Source: a virus. Taken from it: a stretch of 33,947 bases of DNA. The DNA is taken from IMG/VR virus record IMGVR_UViG_3300028008_002405, positions 1 to 33,947 of that record, one strand, 5' to 3'. This document shows positions 2,685-25,787 of the stretch, piece after piece (position 1 is the first letter of the stretch; each line of letters starts with the position of its first letter). The position numbers and the translations under genes are program-made. Below the pieces are notes generated by a model. That model was not told the DNA's origin and made no database searches. It worked only from the letters and a program-made list of their open reading frames with translations.

Positions 2685-3548
2685 ATGAACGAAGCTGCAG
2701 CTATAAATAAGACAGGCGCCGCCAAATGGGGATTTACGTCCTACTCCCTGAAAGTTCTGGCGCTTCTGCTGATGACACTTGACCATATTTATTATTATTT
2801 GGGAAGCGGAATCCTTCCGATCCCACATATCTTCACCCTGCTTGGCCGGATTTCCGCACCGCTGTTTCTGTTTGCCATGGCAGAGGGGTTTTCACACACA
2901 CATGACAGGATGGCATATCTCAAGAGGCTGTATCTTGCATCTGTACTCATGTCAGTGGGCAATGACCTGGTCAATTCCTTTCTTCCGCACCCAAATGGTG
3001 CCATGGTCATTAACGGCATGTTTGCCACCTTATTTATTGTGGGCCTTTATATCTGGGCCATCGAATTGTTATTGGGAAATATAAAAAAGAAAAATTGGAA
3101 AAACATAGGGATTGCACTGGCTATGCTGCTCATTCCCATAGGTTCAGGTATTGGGATCACTCTGTACATGGGAAATACCGCATCAGTTTCACCCATCGGA
3201 AGGATTGTATTCCAGGCCCTGTATACTTTGGTGCCGTCACCGATTTTTGTGGAAGGCTCTGTTTACTGGGTGTTCCTTGGAATCGGCTTTTATTTTCTCA
3301 GAAATAAGAAAATCGGTCTCTCTGTCTTCTATGTACTTATGTCGGGATTCTTCTTCTTTACCGCAGCCGGCGAAGGAATGACCTATGAGAATCTGTTCAT
3401 CCTGAATGACCAGTGGTTTATGGTCCTCTCCCTACCTTTTATCCTGCTTTACAGCGGACAGCGGGGAAAGAAAATGAAATACTTTTTCTATATGTATTAC
3501 CCGCTGCACGTATACGTGCTTGTACTACTGGCCAGACTTTTGGCCTGA
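2685..3548 (+). CDS. TraX-family integral membrane protein
   Basis: A 287-aa polytopic membrane protein resembling the TraX family (named after the F-pilin N-acetylation protein). The LKVLALLLMTLDHIYYYL segment at residues 24-41 is the typical first helix with a conserved Asp-His. It is followed by the family-like GRISAPLFLFAMAEGFSHT stretch around residues 54-72. About eight hydrophobic segments follow, and the C-terminal MKYFFYMYYPLHVYVL segment is also typical. In Firmicutes, TraX-family proteins occur widely outside conjugation systems and are thought to be membrane acyltransferases; the acceptor is unknown here. It has a strong ribosome-binding site, stands alone as a rightward unit, and is followed by its own terminator at 3597. 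Confidence 0.88.
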   Translation: MNEAAAINKTGAAKWGFTSYSLKVLALLLMTLDHIYYYLGSGILPIPHIFTLLGRISAPLFLFAMAEGFSHTHDRMAYLKRLYLASVLMSVGNDLVNSFLPHPNGAMVINGMFATLFIVGLYIWAIELLLGNIKKKNWKNIGIALAMLLIPIGSGIGITLYMGNTASVSPIGRIVFQALYTLVPSPIFVEGSVYWVFLGIGFYFLRNKKIGLSVFYVLMSGFFFFTAAGEGMTYENLFILNDQWFMVLSLPFILLYSGQRGKKMKYFFYMYYPLHVYVLVLLARLLA

Positions 3549-3596: not shown

Positions 3597-3657
3597 AGAG
3601 ACCTTATCCAAAAGACAGTATAATATCACGGCTGCCTTTGATAAGGTCTCTTTTTTT
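3597..3657 (+). terminator. Strong intrinsic terminator after the traX-like gene
   Basis: A perfect 12-bp stem, AGAGACCTTATC (3597-3608) with GATAAGGTCTCT (3640-3651), is followed by a run of seven T. The 31-nt loop is unusually long. It lies between the rightward traX-like gene and the convergent 3' end of the M23 gene and may serve both directions, since TTTTG follows the stem on the minus strand. Confidence 0.85.
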
Positions 3658-3677
3658 CACAATCCTGGCGGCTCAGC

Positions 3678-4166
3678 TCACGGCTTCTCCGAATCCGTGC
3701 CTGCTGCCGGCTGCTCCTTTGCAGTCTTCAAATACTCCAAAGCCTCCGGGTCCTTCATCTGGAGCATTCTTGACCACTCCTTTGTGGCATCATCCCTGAC
3801 CACCTCTGACTGGTTCTTATACAAAAATTTTACCAATTCATAGACATCCACCCAGATTTCATGATTCCCTTCCCTCTGGGACTCGTCAAAGATAAGCTGC
3901 AGTCCAAAATGCAGATGGGTCGTGTCAATATTATTCACATTTTCCTTTGCGCTGTATCCTGTTCGTCCCATATAGCCCACAACATCCCCGGCCTGAACAA
4001 CACTGCCCACTTCCAAGGATTTGCAGTACGGAAAGTTCTGACGCAGGTGGGCGTAATAATAATATCGTCTGCCGTCAAAGCTGCTGATACCCAGACGCCA
4101 TCCTCCGTACTGGTTCCATCCCATAGCTGATACATAGCCGGATTCTACAGCTATGATCGGTGTTCC
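3678..4166 (-). pseudogene. M23 (LytM-type) metallopeptidase, 3' part only
   Basis: The readable homology begins at TGTPIIAVESGYV (near 4163) and runs to the stop at 3678. It contains the beta-rich LytM core, the GGWRLGISS and YYYYAHLR strands, GDVVGYMGRTGYS, and the second zinc motif HxH in THLHFGL. The first zinc-ligand motif (H-x3-D), which should lie 10-25 residues upstream, is missing. The frame continues upstream to about 4370, but that part (CSECQGNIVLYFIL and upstream) does not resemble an M23 protein and overlaps the SOS-type promoter on the other strand. The protein would have hydrolysed peptidoglycan cross-bridges. The clean loss of the 5' half next to phage DNA suggests disruption by prophage integration rather than slow decay. 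Confidence 0.7.
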
Positions 4167-4185
4167 TGTCAGGATAAAATATAGA
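4145..4185. other. Probable left prophage attachment junction (attL)
   Basis: M23 homology in the leftward host gene stops near 4165. From about 4190 rightwards the sequence is promoter and small-ORF DNA typical of a prophage edge, followed by lysis, tail and head genes in one orientation. The junction is inferred from that boundary. The second copy of the core (attR) is beyond the window, so the core sequence and its exact extent cannot be defined here. Confidence 0.5.
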
Positions 4186-4196
4186 ACAATATTCCC

Positions 4197-4248
4197 TTGA
4201 CACTCCGAACATATATTCGTATAATTAAGCCATACAAACATTTGTTCT
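4197..4248 (+). promoter_or_regulatory. Consensus sigma-A promoter with LexA-like boxes
   Basis: A perfect -35 TTGACA (4197-4202) and perfect -10 TATAAT (4220-4225) are separated by exactly 17 nt. The spacer holds CGAACATATATTCG (4206-4219), one base from the Firmicute LexA consensus CGAACATATGTTCG. A second, weaker box CAAACATTTGTTCT lies at 4235-4248. A LexA dimer there would block RNA polymerase, so the promoter should be silent until DNA damage. It drives the 60-aa ORF at 4269. Confidence 0.75.
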
Positions 4249-4268
4249 GTTTTTAAGAGGTGATGCGT

Positions 4269-4451
4269 ATGAAGAATATTATTTATGAGAATCACGACGC
4301 TTTTCTTTTGTATCAGGCCGCTCTTGAACGTAATCCTGATTTGCAAGCACATGGAAGTATATCCGTACAATATGCTCTCTATTTATATTATAAGGCATAT
4401 CCTGAGGAGCGCCCCATAGGATATAGATACAAGCGGCATATGTCTGCATAA
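4269..4451 (+). CDS. Small protein under a LexA-type promoter, function unknown
   Basis: A 60-aa protein. I chose the ATG at 4269 because AAGAGG at 4255-4260 lies 8 nt upstream; the ATG at 4263 is only 2 nt from that site. It is rich in Tyr (YALYLYYKAYPEE, IGYRYKRH), has no hydrophobic segment long enough to span a membrane, and ends in a basic tail. I do not recognise the family. It sits at the extreme left end of the prophage, opposite in orientation to the structural genes, behind a promoter that carries LexA-like boxes. This suggests a damage-induced role, for example in excision, cell-cycle delay or modification of a host factor, but nothing in the sequence decides between these. Confidence 0.6.
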   Translation: MKNIIYENHDAFLLYQAALERNPDLQAHGSISVQYALYLYYKAYPEERPIGYRYKRHMSA

Positions 4452-4477
4452 TGTCGAAAATTGTCTATGAGTATTTG

Positions 4478-4506
4478 TTGCCACTTTATCTGTTATACAG
4501 TAAAAT
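4478..4506 (+). promoter_or_regulatory. Promoter reading into the structured RNA
   Basis: TTGCCA (4478-4483) and TAAAAT (4501-4506) are separated by exactly 17 nt. The expected transcription start is about 4512-4514, a few bases before the first hairpin of the RNA candidate at 4518. This fit between promoter and first helix supports an independent transcript. Confidence 0.5.
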
Positions 4507-4512
4507 GATATT

Positions 4513-4815
4513 GTAAACAGAGGTATGGGTAACCTCTGTTCGGCATGATCGACCGGTACTGTTATGGTGCCGGTCATTTTGCGTATAAGCGTACGTCCTG
4601 CCCCGCAGAGGCTTATACGGGCAGTTACGTTGCCAGCGCCGGATAACTGCACCGGGGCGTGATCGGGGTTGACGGGTGACCGGCCTGCAGTATCGTCATA
4701 GGCAGGTACGACGGTATCGCAGGTACTTGTGGCTTGCAAGCCAATGGGCCGCCAGGGGAGTTGCACCCCTGGTACGCTGTCCGGCCCTTCACCCGGTATT
4801 TCCTAATCGGGATGG
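4513..4815 (+). ncRNA. Candidate structured non-coding RNA of unknown class
   Basis: About 300 nt, clearly GC-richer than its flanks, with no convincing ORF and many perfect helices. Simple hairpins are 4518-4524/4532-4538 (7 bp) and 4551-4559/4567-4575 (9 bp, one G-U). A 9-bp helix 4582-4590/4611-4619 interlocks with CTGCCC 4598-4603 pairing to GGGCAG 4619-4624, an H-type pseudoknot. The alternative GCAGTTA/TAACTGC helix (4621-4627/4644-4650) competes with it. A long-range helix 4673-4679/4789-4795 (7 bp) closes a multi-arm junction. Its arms are 4684-4697/4710-4723, the palindrome 4731-4742, and 4746-4758/4766-4787 with an inner 7-bp perfect hairpin. The G-U pairs favour the plus strand. 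The architecture is compatible with large phage or transposon RNAs such as HEARO/OMEGA, but I cannot confirm the class. Confidence 0.6.
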
Positions 4816-4819
4816 CACA

Positions 4820-4963
4820 CTATACTGGAAAGGGTTGCTGATGCTCCTCTTCCCATTCCATTTCCATCTCATATAATTTTTCAATCCATTCTATATAATT
4901 CATACTTTTAGGCTTCTTTACCTTAAAAAATTTTTCCAAGGCTGTTATTCTGGCCCCAATCAT
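4820..4963 (-). CDS. Small acidic phage protein, 47 aa
   Basis: The ORF starts at ATG 4963 with AAAGGAG 6 nt upstream and encodes 47 aa. A basic N-terminal half (KFFKVKKPKS) is followed by a strongly acidic helix (EKLYEMEMEWEEEHQQ). There is no signal peptide and no membrane segment. The good ribosome-binding site and charge pattern suggest a real gene; the function is unknown. A GC-rich hairpin (4976-4982/4991-4997) lies immediately 5' of its ribosome-binding site and could affect translation. Its stop codon abuts the 3' side of the structured RNA on the opposite strand. Confidence 0.6.
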   Translation of the reverse strand: MIGARITALEKFFKVKKPKSMNYIEWIEKLYEMEMEWEEEHQQPFPV

Positions 4964-5008
4964 AATACTCCTTTCCCGGCGCATAACCGGGCGCCGGTCC
5001 GGTGCTTC

Positions 5009-5101
5009 CTATTTGCATTTCCGGTCTTTGAGTAACACTACAATGATTCCTGTGCTGACAATGATCTGCACGACGTCTAAAATAATTTCTATGATTGCCA
5101 T
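5009..5101 (-). CDS. Possible 30-aa hydrophobic peptide
   Basis: Thirty residues starting MAIIEIILDVVQIIV form one continuous hydrophobic helix ending in a basic tail (LLKDRKCK). This is the layout of holin-like or type I toxin-like membrane peptides. No Shine-Dalgarno sequence precedes the ATG at 5101, which weakens the call. It lies between a 38-aa peptide of similar design and the 47-aa ORF, downstream of a hairpin at 5133-5160, so expression might depend on readthrough. Confidence 0.4.
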   Translation of the reverse strand: MAIIEIILDVVQIIVSTGIIVVLLKDRKCK

Positions 5102-5132
5102 ACTTGACAATGGGCAAAGAAAACGATATCCT

Positions 5133-5160
5133 TATTTTAAGGGAAGGGGCTTTCGCCCCC
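5133..5160 (-). terminator. Possible terminator after the 38-aa membrane peptide
   Basis: On the minus strand GGGGC-GAAA-GCCCC (5155-5159/5146-5150) forms a tight tetraloop hairpin followed by TTCCCTTAAAAT. The T-run is interrupted, so termination may be partial. Confidence 0.45.
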
Positions 5161-5165
5161 GCCCC

Positions 5166-5282
5166 CTAATCTAGCAGATGATTGATTAAATCAATCAGGG
5201 CTTGGATTAGTTGGATTGTTGCGGTAATGAGAAGGATGCTTGCGAGGCGTTTCTCATTGCCGCTTTTCTTTTTCTTCCCCAT
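5166..5282 (-). CDS. Holin-like/toxin-like small membrane peptide, 38 aa
   Basis: Thirty-eight residues: a very basic N-terminus (MGKKKKSGNEKR) followed by an amphipathic to hydrophobic helix (LASILLITATIQLIQALIDL). It has an excellent AAAGGAGGTGA ribosome-binding site and a perfect consensus promoter (TTGACA-17-TATAAT) directly upstream. Peptides of this design in Firmicute prophages are usually annotated as putative holin-like toxins. Such expression strength for a membrane-active peptide would need repression. The divergently transcribed HTH protein at 5436 is the obvious candidate, since symmetric motifs occupy both promoter spacers. The toxin role is inference. Confidence 0.65.
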   Translation of the reverse strand: MGKKKKSGNEKRLASILLITATIQLIQALIDLINHLLD

Positions 5283-5308
5283 TGTTCTCACCTCCTTTCT
5301 ATGATTAC

Positions 5309-5413
5309 ATTATACACTAATAAGTGTCACATGTCAATACTTTAATTTCACTTTTTTATTTCTTTTTAAACTCATATATTTATATTGACATTTAAAAGTG
5401 TATCATTTACACT
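5309..5413. promoter_or_regulatory. Divergent promoter pair with inverted-repeat operators
   Basis: Leftward promoter: -35 TTGACA (minus strand, 5332-5337), 17-nt spacer, -10 TATAAT (5309-5314). Rightward promoter: TTGACA (5385-5390), 17-nt spacer, TACACT (5408-5413). The leftward spacer holds ACACT-AATA-AGTGT (5314-5327). The rightward spacer and -10 hold AGTGTA-TCATT-TACACT (5397-5413). Both use the half-site AGTGT, though in opposite relative orientation. This suggests control of both promoters by one dimeric regulator, most simply the HTH protein encoded at 5436. Confidence 0.7.
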
Positions 5414-5435
5414 GTAATTAACAGGAGGTGTTATC

Positions 5436-5651
5436 ATGTTAACTGTATCAGAAAAAGTCAGGGTTTTATTAGATAGAAAAAAAATGACTGTAGGAGATTT
5501 GGCTGATAGACTGGGCGTGACAAGACAAAATTTGAGTAATAAACTTACAAGAAATAATTTTGCTGAAAATGATATAGCCAAATTAGCAGATGCATTGAAT
5601 TGCGATTTTGAGATTAGATTCACAGATAGAGATACAAATGATTTTATTTAA
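5436..5651 (+). CDS. Small HTH (Cro/CI-type) DNA-binding regulator
   Basis: A 71-aa single-domain helix-turn-helix protein. The DNA-binding core is MTVGDLADRLGVTRQNLSNK at residues 18-37, with the recognition helix VTRQNLSNKL, and the fold continues through AKLADALNCDFEIRF. It has an ACAGGAGGTG ribosome-binding site. Size and sequence match stand-alone XRE-family regulators rather than a full lysogeny repressor. It is divergent from the 38-aa membrane peptide and its own promoter contains an inverted repeat, so autoregulation plus repression of the peptide is likely. It stands far from the early genes, which argues against it being the main CI repressor. Confidence 0.85.
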   Translation: MLTVSEKVRVLLDRKKMTVGDLADRLGVTRQNLSNKLTRNNFAENDIAKLADALNCDFEIRFTDRDTNDFI

Positions 5652-5656
5652 ACACC

Positions 5657-5685
5657 AGCCCCGGCTCATCACCGGGGCTATTATT
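5657..5685 (+). terminator. Terminator hairpin after the HTH gene
   Basis: AGCCCCGG (5657-5664) and CCGGGGCT (5672-5679) form a perfect 8-bp stem with a 7-nt loop, followed by ATTATTATG. The T content after the stem is modest, but its place 5 nt after the stop codon fits a terminator. Confidence 0.6.
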
Positions 5686-5723
5686 ATGCCACTAACTCGA
5701 CGTCGAGCCGGATCACAGCATCA

Positions 5724-5790
5724 CTATTTAAGTGCACCGGAACTGTCGGTATAACACATCTTGCCGGACTTGTCCACGTAGTAGACCTTT
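5724..5790 (-). pseudogene. Detached C-terminal tail of a phage lysin
   Basis: Minus-strand translation reads KVYYVDKSGKMCYTDSSGAL and ends at TAG 5724. It is the counterpart of the last residues of the intact lysin at 6332 (YYVDKQGRMCYTDSSGRL), diverged at many third positions. There is no start or upstream lysin sequence: the preceding bases belong to the end of the 132-aa ORF. It is a remnant of a second lysin 3' end, left by recombination or by insertion of the DNA between 5790 and 6331. Confidence 0.75.
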
Positions 5791-5801
5791 TGTTTCCTGC
5801 A

Positions 5802-6200
5802 TTATTCTATTTTGAATAATCTTCTACCAATAACAACCCCGTGATCCAGAGCTTCATTGGGACTTTGATTTTCATATGCTATTTTAATTTCAAATCTATA
5901 ATACCCTCTATGGAATTCAAATGGCTTAGGGAACTTAGTTGTAAATAGCAGCTGTATCTTTCCACTTTCTCTTGTAGTAAAGTACCCCAAACAATACATT
6001 GATCCATCATCACCTTCTATATTCTCTTGTACCATATTAATCCAAAAAGTATATTTTTCAGGAAATTCTATGGTACCATCAAGAGCTAATACTAGGCTTA
6101 AACCAAGAGATGCCTTTTCAAGCAAAAAGCAACTAGTACAACGAAAATCATATATGTACCATATGGCATAAGATTTATTCACAAGAGCACTGCTCAACAC
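5802..6200 (-). CDS. Hypothetical protein of unknown function, possibly 5'-truncated
   Basis: Up to 132 aa in markedly AT-rich DNA, unlike its lysis-gene neighbours. It looks beta-rich (LGLSLVLALDGTIEFPEKYTFWINMV, then GYYRFEIKIAY) with no membrane segment or catalytic motif I can name. The only upstream starts are GTG or TTG codons near 6200 without a ribosome-binding site. In another frame upstream, at about 6265-6285, there is a phrase IIAPSACFYLQV that could be the original N-terminus, which would imply a frameshift. It sits between the intact lysin and a detached lysin tail, so it is probably an acquired cargo gene, now perhaps degraded. Confidence 0.4.
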   Translation of the reverse strand: MLSSALVNKSYAIWYIYDFRCTSCFLLEKASLGLSLVLALDGTIEFPEKYTFWINMVQENIEGDDGSMYCLGYFTTRESGKIQLLFTTKFPKPFEFHRGYYRFEIKIAYENQSPNEALDHGVVIGRRLFKIE

Positions 6201-6331
6201 AGATGCAGACGTAGCGAGCTACACATAGGCTTTTTGAATAGTGTACTTGTAGATAAAAGCAAGCAGATGGTGCAATTATTTGATATTCGTTGTACTTGAT
6301 AAATATTTTATAGCCCTAATCAAATTTATTA

Positions 6332-7369
6332 CTATGAGGCTACGAGACGTCCGCTTGAATCCGTATAACACATTCTTCCCTGTTTATCCACGTAATACGT
6401 ATCTGCTCCAATTCGCACCAAGTCATCCGCAACCATAGCTCCGTTTGATTTGAGATAATACCAGTTCTTTTTCCATTCAATCCAGCCAGTTTTCATCCAT
6501 CCGGACACATCAAAGAAGAACCATATTCCGCCGATTTTTTCCCAATCATTCCGGGTATATCCACCGTCTGCATGGCGATACCACCAACGACCGTCACGTA
6601 CCTGTATCCAGTTATTCTTTTTGAGGTACGTGTTTACGGCGGCCTTTGTCTTTTCTCCCACACACCCATCTGGATCAGCACCTACAAGGCGCTGTACGCG
6701 GATAGTCTGTGCCTCTGTATCTTGGCCAAATTCGCCGTCTGCATTTACATTGCTACCGAATGTGTTTAATGTTTTCTGCCATGCGGTCACCTCTACTCCG
6801 GTATCACCTTTTGACAGCCAATTTTTATTGTTTGCTGTCGGTGCATTACCAGACATGGCACCGCCAGTAACACCGGCGACAATAGCATTTGCCATCTTTT
6901 CTGCGGTATATCTACTTGCATCCCCTGCATTGTCGCAAAAACAGCACTCTACCAGGAGTGCCGGACTTGACGTATGCCGCAACACATAAAGACTGGGGTT
7001 CGTCTTTACGCCTCTTTTTGTGTAGCCAAGCTCTCCGATCCGGTCCACGATCCTTTGGGCATAGGGTTCTGCGGCTGTTCCCCAATTGTAGATAAATACC
7101 TCTGTTCCGTGCGCCGATCCATTATAGCAGTTGAAATGGACGGACACATCCAGATCTACGGCATGGGTATTGCATTTCGCCACGATAGCTGCAAGGTTTC
7201 CGCTTACACTGCCGGAATCCTCATCTGTACAGTCATATACTGTATGCCCTGCCGCGCGGAGCTTACTAATCACCAAGTCCTTTACTTTCCGGTCTTCCGC
7301 GGTCTCTGAAAATACCCCCGAAGCTCCCGGGACTTTAAAGTTATGTCCTGCATGTACATTAATTTTCAT
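6332..7369 (-). CDS. Endolysin: N-acetylmuramoyl-L-alanine amidase with cell-wall-binding repeats
   Basis: A 345-aa lysin that cleaves the amide bond between muramic acid and L-alanine. Residues 1-175 form an Amidase_3 domain: zinc ligands His9 (HAGHN), Glu22 or Glu25, and His78 (SVHFN), with catalytic Glu141 (LLVECCF). Residues about 183-252 form a peptidoglycan-binding helical domain (WQKTLNTFG and DGEFGQDTEAQTIRVQRLVG). Residues 255-345 are choline-binding-like aromatic repeats (WWYRHADGGY, WFFFDVSGWMKTGWIEW, WYYLKSNGAM). There is no signal peptide, so export depends on the holin genes at 7431-8005. The ribosome-binding site AAAGGAG is 6 nt from the ATG. Confidence 0.95.
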   Translation of the reverse strand: MKINVHAGHNFKVPGASGVFSETAEDRKVKDLVISKLRAAGHTVYDCTDEDSGSVSGNLAAIVAKCNTHAVDLDVSVHFNCYNGSAHGTEVFIYNWGTAAEPYAQRIVDRIGELGYTKRGVKTNPSLYVLRHTSSPALLVECCFCDNAGDASRYTAEKMANAIVAGVTGGAMSGNAPTANNKNWLSKGDTGVEVTAWQKTLNTFGSNVNADGEFGQDTEAQTIRVQRLVGADPDGCVGEKTKAAVNTYLKKNNWIQVRDGRWWYRHADGGYTRNDWEKIGGIWFFFDVSGWMKTGWIEWKKNWYYLKSNGAMVADDLVRIGADTYYVDKQGRMCYTDSSGRLVAS

Positions 7370-25713: not shown

Positions 25714-25715
25714 AG

Positions 25716-25787
25716 TTGGCGTGGCCGGATTCGGACCGGCACACACAGCTTATAAAGCTTCCGCTCTAACCATTGAGCTACACGTCA
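25716..25787 (-). tRNA. tRNA-Ile-like gene, anticodon UAU
   Basis: A 72-nt minus-strand sequence folds as a cloverleaf. The acceptor stem TGACGTG/CACGCCA has one A-C mismatch. The D arm is GCTC-AATGGTTA-GAGC. The anticodon loop TTTATAA gives anticodon UAU (reads AUA) on a stem with a 3-bp core, one A-G mismatch and one G-U. The T arm is GCCGG-TCCGAAT-CCGGC, with C instead of T at position 55. No CCA is encoded. The mismatches suggest a weak or decaying phage tRNA. UAU is rare in bacteria, which usually read AUA with a modified CAU anticodon. Confidence 0.6.

Follow-up and report, generated by a model that had tools for sequence, protein, structure and literature searches.

A predicted small-RNA unit with a putative Spo0A-type operator at the edge of Blautia-type prophages

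The prophage edge in a 33.9-kb virus record (hereafter the window, i.e., the whole stretch of 33,947 nt that was analysed) appears to carry a noncoding transcription unit on its plus strand, a conclusion that is well supported by sequence comparison. Its best explanation, to which we give a probability of about one half, is a unit made of a sigma-A promoter, a Spo0A-type operator and a predicted regulatory RNA of ~70 nt with two hairpins. As a small-RNA unit at a prophage edge it is ordinary in kind and new as an item, and it has no match in Rfam. Literature searches at title and abstract level (Blautia prophage RNA, Spo0A boxes with prophage and small RNA, Montmirail) returned nothing on the element.

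In the proposed mechanism, the sigma-A promoter, with its conserved operator just upstream of the -35, would drive the synthesis of the ~70-nt RNA, the second hairpin of which would serve as an intrinsic terminator. The operator would most likely be bound as tandem 0A boxes by the phosphorylated Spo0A of the host, resulting in either activation or repression, and with such binding the level of the RNA would follow the decision of the host to sporulate. Most likely the RNA would act in trans and pair with its target via its leader or the conserved terminator loop TGTAATG. In the window and two relatives, the terminator has a short U tract with a GC-rich folded tail behind it; here a fraction of the transcripts may extend through the terminator and finish close to the stop codon of a convergent 54-aa gene.

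Setting and distribution of the unit

The left 4.17 kb of the record is host DNA. Positions 3600-4170 match locus L059 of genome G014 at 98.4% identity. In that locus the frame of an M23 peptidase gene is open over 421 aa; in the window this host gene is interrupted and the match ends at 4170. Because host homology ends there, the candidate RNA region lies at the prophage edge, ~280 bases away from the junction, as the sequence-only reading that preceded this analysis had correctly placed it. Similarity to other prophages extends rightwards from ~4197, and small accessory ORFs, an HTH gene, an endolysin, a holin and a tail gene are found to the right of the edge. A perfect TTGACA-17-TATAAT promoter (4197-4225, plus strand) precedes a family-less ORF of 62 aa (4263-4451, plus strand), relatives of which adjoin the small-RNA unit in L022, L028, and L051. 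A tRNA-Ile with anticodon TAT is located inside the prophage (25715-25787, minus strand), and Blautia phage Montmirail carries both a tRNA-Ile and a tRNA-Asn. Close to the prophage end in L005, positions 500-700 contain a long inverted repeat (TTGATAACCTCTATGT...ACATAGAGGTTATCAA), perhaps part of an attachment site.

Searches by BLAST and by pattern located the element in Montmirail and in the viral contigs L005 and L007; the copies in L008/L009 were added by a pattern of the tail, and those in L011, L017, L020-L022, L025, L028, L049, L051, and L053 via the endolysin protein and the promoter pattern. Related Blautia-type prophages bear the promoter/hairpin unit at the same edge. Among 23 endolysin loci (5 genome contigs and 18 viral contigs), the hairpin is present in 10, counted whether or not the contig reaches the edge. 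In the genus of Blautia parvula, 3 of 20 genomes contain the element, a convincing copy was recovered from one of 397 genomes of the family, and the plasmids searched for it yielded nothing. The element is a narrow family in prophages of Blautia-type hosts. Repeat fetches or copies of L005/L007 (L015, L026, L033, L034, L040, and L045) were not counted separately, L022/L047, L028/L048, L017/L052, and L018/L044 are each the same contig fetched twice, and two rows were dropped, namely L006 (a pattern match with neither promoter nor hairpin around it) and L063 (one 19-base match).

Promoter, operator box and predicted RNA

The sigma-A type promoter TTGCCA-17-TAAAAT described in the sequence-only reading is present on the plus strand at 4478-4506, with the -35 at 4478-4483 and the -10 at 4501-4506; the distance of 12 nt given there between promoter and first stem is wrong, as 9 nt separate the -10 hexamer from the stem, which begins at 4516. 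Across 13 distinct homologous promoters, the box TGTCGAAAAN(C/T)GTC(C/T)A, the -35 and the -10 are kept at fixed spacing and the spacers drift. Column identity reaches 98.7% in the box (consensus GTCGAAAA-NN-GTC-N-A), 100% in the -35 core TTGC and 87% in the -10, and falls to 67% and 59% in the two spacers (66.9% for the 10 bp that follow the box); exactly 10 bp separate box and -35 in the 13 promoters, and -35 and -10 lie 17 bp apart in every one of the 13 rows, all of these figures coming from a footprint regex that itself fixes part of the counted positions, the 17-bp spacer included. Upstream of the box, identity ranges from 33 to 83% per column (12 rows). The same layout is found in loci that first came to light through their endolysin, similarity to the element or the tail pattern and not through the promoter pattern (the window, Montmirail, L005, L007, L008, L011, L017, L021, L022, L025, and L028). 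A variant of it occurs in L020, whose box lacks one base and whose -35 reads TGGC; this row was left out when the footprint was counted. No hairpin stands behind the promoter pattern in 2 of 12 contigs (L046, L050) and in one of two genomes (G241, L055), and these rows were dropped; such matches indicate that the pattern also arises by chance or in other settings. The joint conservation of box, -35 and -10 is what a promoter in use, together with an operator, leaves behind as a footprint.

The box TGTCGAAAATTGTCTA (4452-4467, plus strand) contains two TGTC half-sites 10 bp apart, i.e., a 0A box TGTCGAA and a degenerate second one that agrees with the 0A core at 5 of 7 positions at best. The motif TGTCGAA (4452-4458, -61 to -55 from the putative start) is conserved and is the core of the 0A box bound by Spo0A in Bacillus and Clostridioides (PMC3485338). 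In the host-type genomes G001, G014, and G015, Spo0A scores above the curated cut-off, TGTCGAAAA occurs upstream of spoIIGA (3 of 3, its use by the host being judged by position only) and a TGTCGAA box lies near spo0A (3 of 3); in the same genomes no 0A box was found before the SpoIIE-like match. TGTCGAAAA occurs once in the window, at the small-RNA promoter, and four times in the Montmirail record, one occurrence being in the paired box and the others, at 3322, 23663, and 29603, unpaired. Since the box is identical to the 0A box and three host-type genomes have it upstream of spoIIGA, control by sporulation is plausible, and the odds that Spo0A governs the predicted small-RNA promoter appear close to even. 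Use by a phage of promoter-associated sites of the host sporulation master regulator is described for phi29 (PMC9437464); phi29 is virulent and binding of Spo0A suspends its lytic development, whereas here a putative Spo0A site would serve an edge small RNA of a temperate phage. Small RNAs of C. difficile that act on the initiation of sporulation have also been reported (PMC10267692).

The predicted RNA, with putative start and end, covers 4513-4580 on the plus strand (~70 nt, two hairpins). It folds with a z of -4.39 on the plus strand, none of 200 shuffles being as good, and of -5.79 on the minus strand; L051 has the same layout with a fold z of -3.59. The 5' hairpin (AACAGAGGT/ACCTCTGTT, 4516-4540, plus strand) is kept in L051 and is diverged or absent in most other copies. 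Behind this variable leader stands a conserved terminator-like hairpin, GGCCGGCAC-TGTAATG-GTGCCGGCC, followed by GTTTTG or ATTTTG in most copies; its version in the window is GACCGGTAC-tgttatg-GTGCCGGTC, then ATTTT (4551-4580, plus strand). In 11 copies of this hairpin (10 distinct rows, 120 cells), 97.5% of the cells are paired on the plus strand, and 18 G-U cells stand against 2 C-A cells, a count that rests on copies found by similarity and not by regex. The corresponding count for 15 distinct hairpins is 32 G-U vs. 4 C-A cells, where the regex fixes some positions and favours C/T changes. The 18 G-U cells would be mismatches on the minus strand, and their excess over C-A shows that the sense of the hairpin is that of a plus-strand RNA. 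Covariation as such does not exceed chance, its score being reached in 91 of 500 shuffles, and the case for the terminator therefore rests on the strand bias and on slid controls. The U-G pairs pointed out earlier at 4557/4569 and 4693/4714 are indeed in the sequence.

Strong U tracts follow the hairpin in L051 (TATTTTTATTTT) and L020 (ATTTTATTTTG), and a new promoter-like TTGACA comes immediately after it in L017, L021, and L025; the hairpin therefore looks like an intrinsic terminator between two transcription units. The terminator of the window is weaker, with only four T and two mismatches in the lower stem. Since the terminator-like hairpin and the 5' hairpin are common to the window and L051, 4513-4580 is read as a small RNA of ~70 nt. 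The unit thereby displays two features of a phage small RNA with an intrinsic terminator: a sigma-A promoter of its own and a terminator hairpin with a U tract, weak in the window. The OOP RNA of phage lambda is likewise a short phage RNA with its own promoter and terminator, and its promoter is under the control of the host regulator LexA; the predicted RNA resembles OOP in its build, with Spo0A instead of LexA as the putative regulator. A second short cassette of promoter, hairpin and U tract, possibly a second small RNA, is found behind the first in L051 (325-424, plus strand), L017, L021, L022, L025, and L028.

The GC-rich tail and competing explanations

The sequence-only reading had proposed 4513-4815 as a candidate for one large structured RNA. 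The perfect helices that it named are all present in the sequence, and an RNA-like region, if there is one, reaches 4820-4822 rather than ending at 4815. The whole 303 nt fold with a z of -3.05 on the plus strand, a signal that comes from 4513-4580. The remaining segment, 4581-4822, is complete in only three independent copies among the sequences searched, i.e., the window, L005 (with G014), and L007; Montmirail retains its first 45 nt and a remnant, and L011 and L028 a shorter remnant. Its main part, a GC-rich structured tail at 4626-4822 (plus strand, strand uncertain; 61% G+C vs. 43% in the window), abuts the stop codon of the convergent 54-aa ORF (4820-4984, minus strand), which is conserved in L007 and belongs to no family. 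The fold z is -1.14 for 4581-4625, -1.67 on the plus strand and -1.81 on the minus strand for 4626-4822, and -1.45 and -0.48, respectively, for the tail of L007. The folds of the pseudoknot piece and of the tail are ordinary for such GC-rich DNA. The tail may be a read-through RNA, the 3' end of minus-strand accessory genes, or both.

The H-type pseudoknot proposed within 4582-4624 consists of two pairings on the plus strand (4582-4590/4611-4619 and 4598-4602/4620-4624) that do exist. With zero nt between their 3' strands the joint structure would be strained, and the two helices are better read as alternatives. Both are possible in the window and L005; L007 and Montmirail have a C-A mismatch in the first and a G-U in the second. 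The 7-bp closing helix proposed at 4673-4679/4789-4795 is present in the window and has two T-T mismatches in L007. Compensatory changes were found, in L007, in another long-range helix: on the plus strand, GTTGCCA (4629-4635) pairs with TGGCACAC (4813-4820, one bulged base), and its L007 counterpart, GATACCA/TGGTGCTT, shows two double changes, two G-U changes and zero breaks.

The most probable alternative, less likely than not in our judgement, takes 4581-4822 for the 3' end of a convergent block of minus-strand genes, with intergenic hairpins and terminators of accessory genes, and is compatible with a small RNA at 4513-4580. It draws on the distal hairpin module GGGCCG-CCAGGGG-AGTTGCA-CCCCTGG-...-CGGCCC (4746-4787, strand undecided), which in L008/L009, L018/L044, and L051 stands without the remaining tail, right behind the stop codons of genes on the minus strand, and which in L051 has ATCATTTATTTT after it on that strand. 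The few changes in this hairpin slightly favour the minus strand (two C-A and one G-U when read as plus strand), and one double change from A-T to G-C is seen in L044. The whole 303-nt segment folds at least as well on the minus strand relative to shuffles (z -4.46). However, the window lacks a U tract behind the distal hairpin on the minus strand, and, read on the plus strand, the changes in the long-range helix 4629-4635/4813-4820 and in the second alternative helix include G-U pairs. A covariance model of the distal hairpin matched in one of 20 genus genomes and in none of 397 family genomes, a blank that shows little since that draw included no known positive.

Further down in probability, and unlikely in our judgement, is the model of one large, structured noncoding RNA that spans 4513-4822 (~310 nt), has its tail closed by 4629-4635/4813-4820 and would act as a ribonucleoprotein scaffold or as a phage regulator. 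For the three full copies, the consensus fold scores better on the plus strand (-111.9, z -6.6 against column shuffles) than on the minus strand (-92.5, z -3.2), also with the terminator hairpin removed (z -3.74 vs. -3.10). The closing helix of this model keeps 7 of 7 pairs in L007 despite four changed pairs, and the central hairpin CCTGCAGTATCGTC/GACGGTATCGCAGG (4684-4723, plus strand) shows two double changes from C-G to T-A between the window and L005/L007, along with three mismatches on the plus strand in the latter. Against these points, the single-sequence fold of the tail is unremarkable in both the window and L007, a terminator-like hairpin precedes the tail, and most prophages with the promoter and terminator lack the tail altogether, in addition to those in which it is shortened. 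The independent occurrence of the distal hairpin, the mismatched closing helix of the original proposal and its linker-less pseudoknot also speak against one large RNA.

The likeness to HEARO/OMEGA, ROOL or GOLLD RNAs drawn in the sequence-only reading is not supported. The best-supported RNA is ~70 nt long. Neither the window nor any of 17 relatives, when scanned against Rfam, yielded a family for the element, and these candidates were dropped for this reason. HEARO (RF02033) is not among the six matches obtained up to E 10 in a cmscan of 4200-5200, and it has no match at the gathering threshold across the window. The resemblance was by analogy only, both being multi-helix RNAs on a mobile element; here, scans of eight ORFs of the phage or the junction (3678-7369) with Pfam and PHROGs found no nuclease family (IscB/TnpB-type included). 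The ROOL and GOLLD models have no match in the window, and those RNAs are well above 500 nt long, vs. at most ~310 nt for the element. A CRISPR-repeat mimic was also considered; BLAST of the L007 element against the 397 family genomes returned the known G001 copies and two weak matches, in G034 and G120 (E 5e-4 and 7e-4).

It is improbable that the hairpins are DNA elements, such as recombination linkers at a cassette-exchange site, with no functional RNA. Homology starts at the box in several prophages with differing DNA upstream, and different cassettes follow the unit, yet the kept -35 and -10, the fixed spacing and the G-U bias make sense only with transcription. A decayed coding sequence is very improbable: overlapping ORFs of 127 aa (minus strand) and up to 117 aa (plus strand, L007) exist, but one-base gaps occur and the window, L005, and L007 share no frame that is both open and alike, for which reason a leader peptide and a minus-strand ORF were rejected as well.

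Accessory cassettes and significance for the prophages

The cassettes that follow the unit differ between prophages and include a STIV B116-like gene, a DUF3800 gene accompanied by its RNA, and a gene that was named YmaF-like by eye. The STIV B116-like gene (PF08960, E 7e-30; L008 6212-6541, plus strand), which belongs to the family of the anti-CRISPR ring nuclease AcrIII-1, lies directly behind a copy of the distal hairpin at a related prophage edge. The DUF3800-I RNA (RF02969) occurs in three related contigs, L049 (286-1092), L008 (2491-2597, minus strand), and L053 (946-1052); in L049 it sits directly behind the conserved small-RNA unit, between this unit and the DUF3800 gene. This accessory RNA differs from the predicted small RNA in sequence and by its partner protein, and RF02969 has no match in the window. 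In L009 and L008, a repeated leader, CCCCAGGGTAAAGGGGAG, precedes the start codons of neighbouring small genes on the minus strand.

The unit marks a site of accessory-gene exchange (the STIV B116-like gene, the DUF3800 gene with its RNA), and it could therefore be used as an anchor for finding further cassettes. A broader picture, speculative and rather doubtful at present, would be that of a family of temperate gut phages with a noncoding RNA at their edge, the promoter of which is read by the master regulator of host sporulation; the RNA, extended in some phages by a tail over the end of the neighbouring accessory gene, would tie the behaviour of the prophage, or the expression of accessory genes, to spore formation. 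In gut bacteria that form spores, a prophage has to survive sporulation, and an edge RNA under a Spo0A-type operator, if true, would be a direct link from a developmental decision of the host to its prophage.
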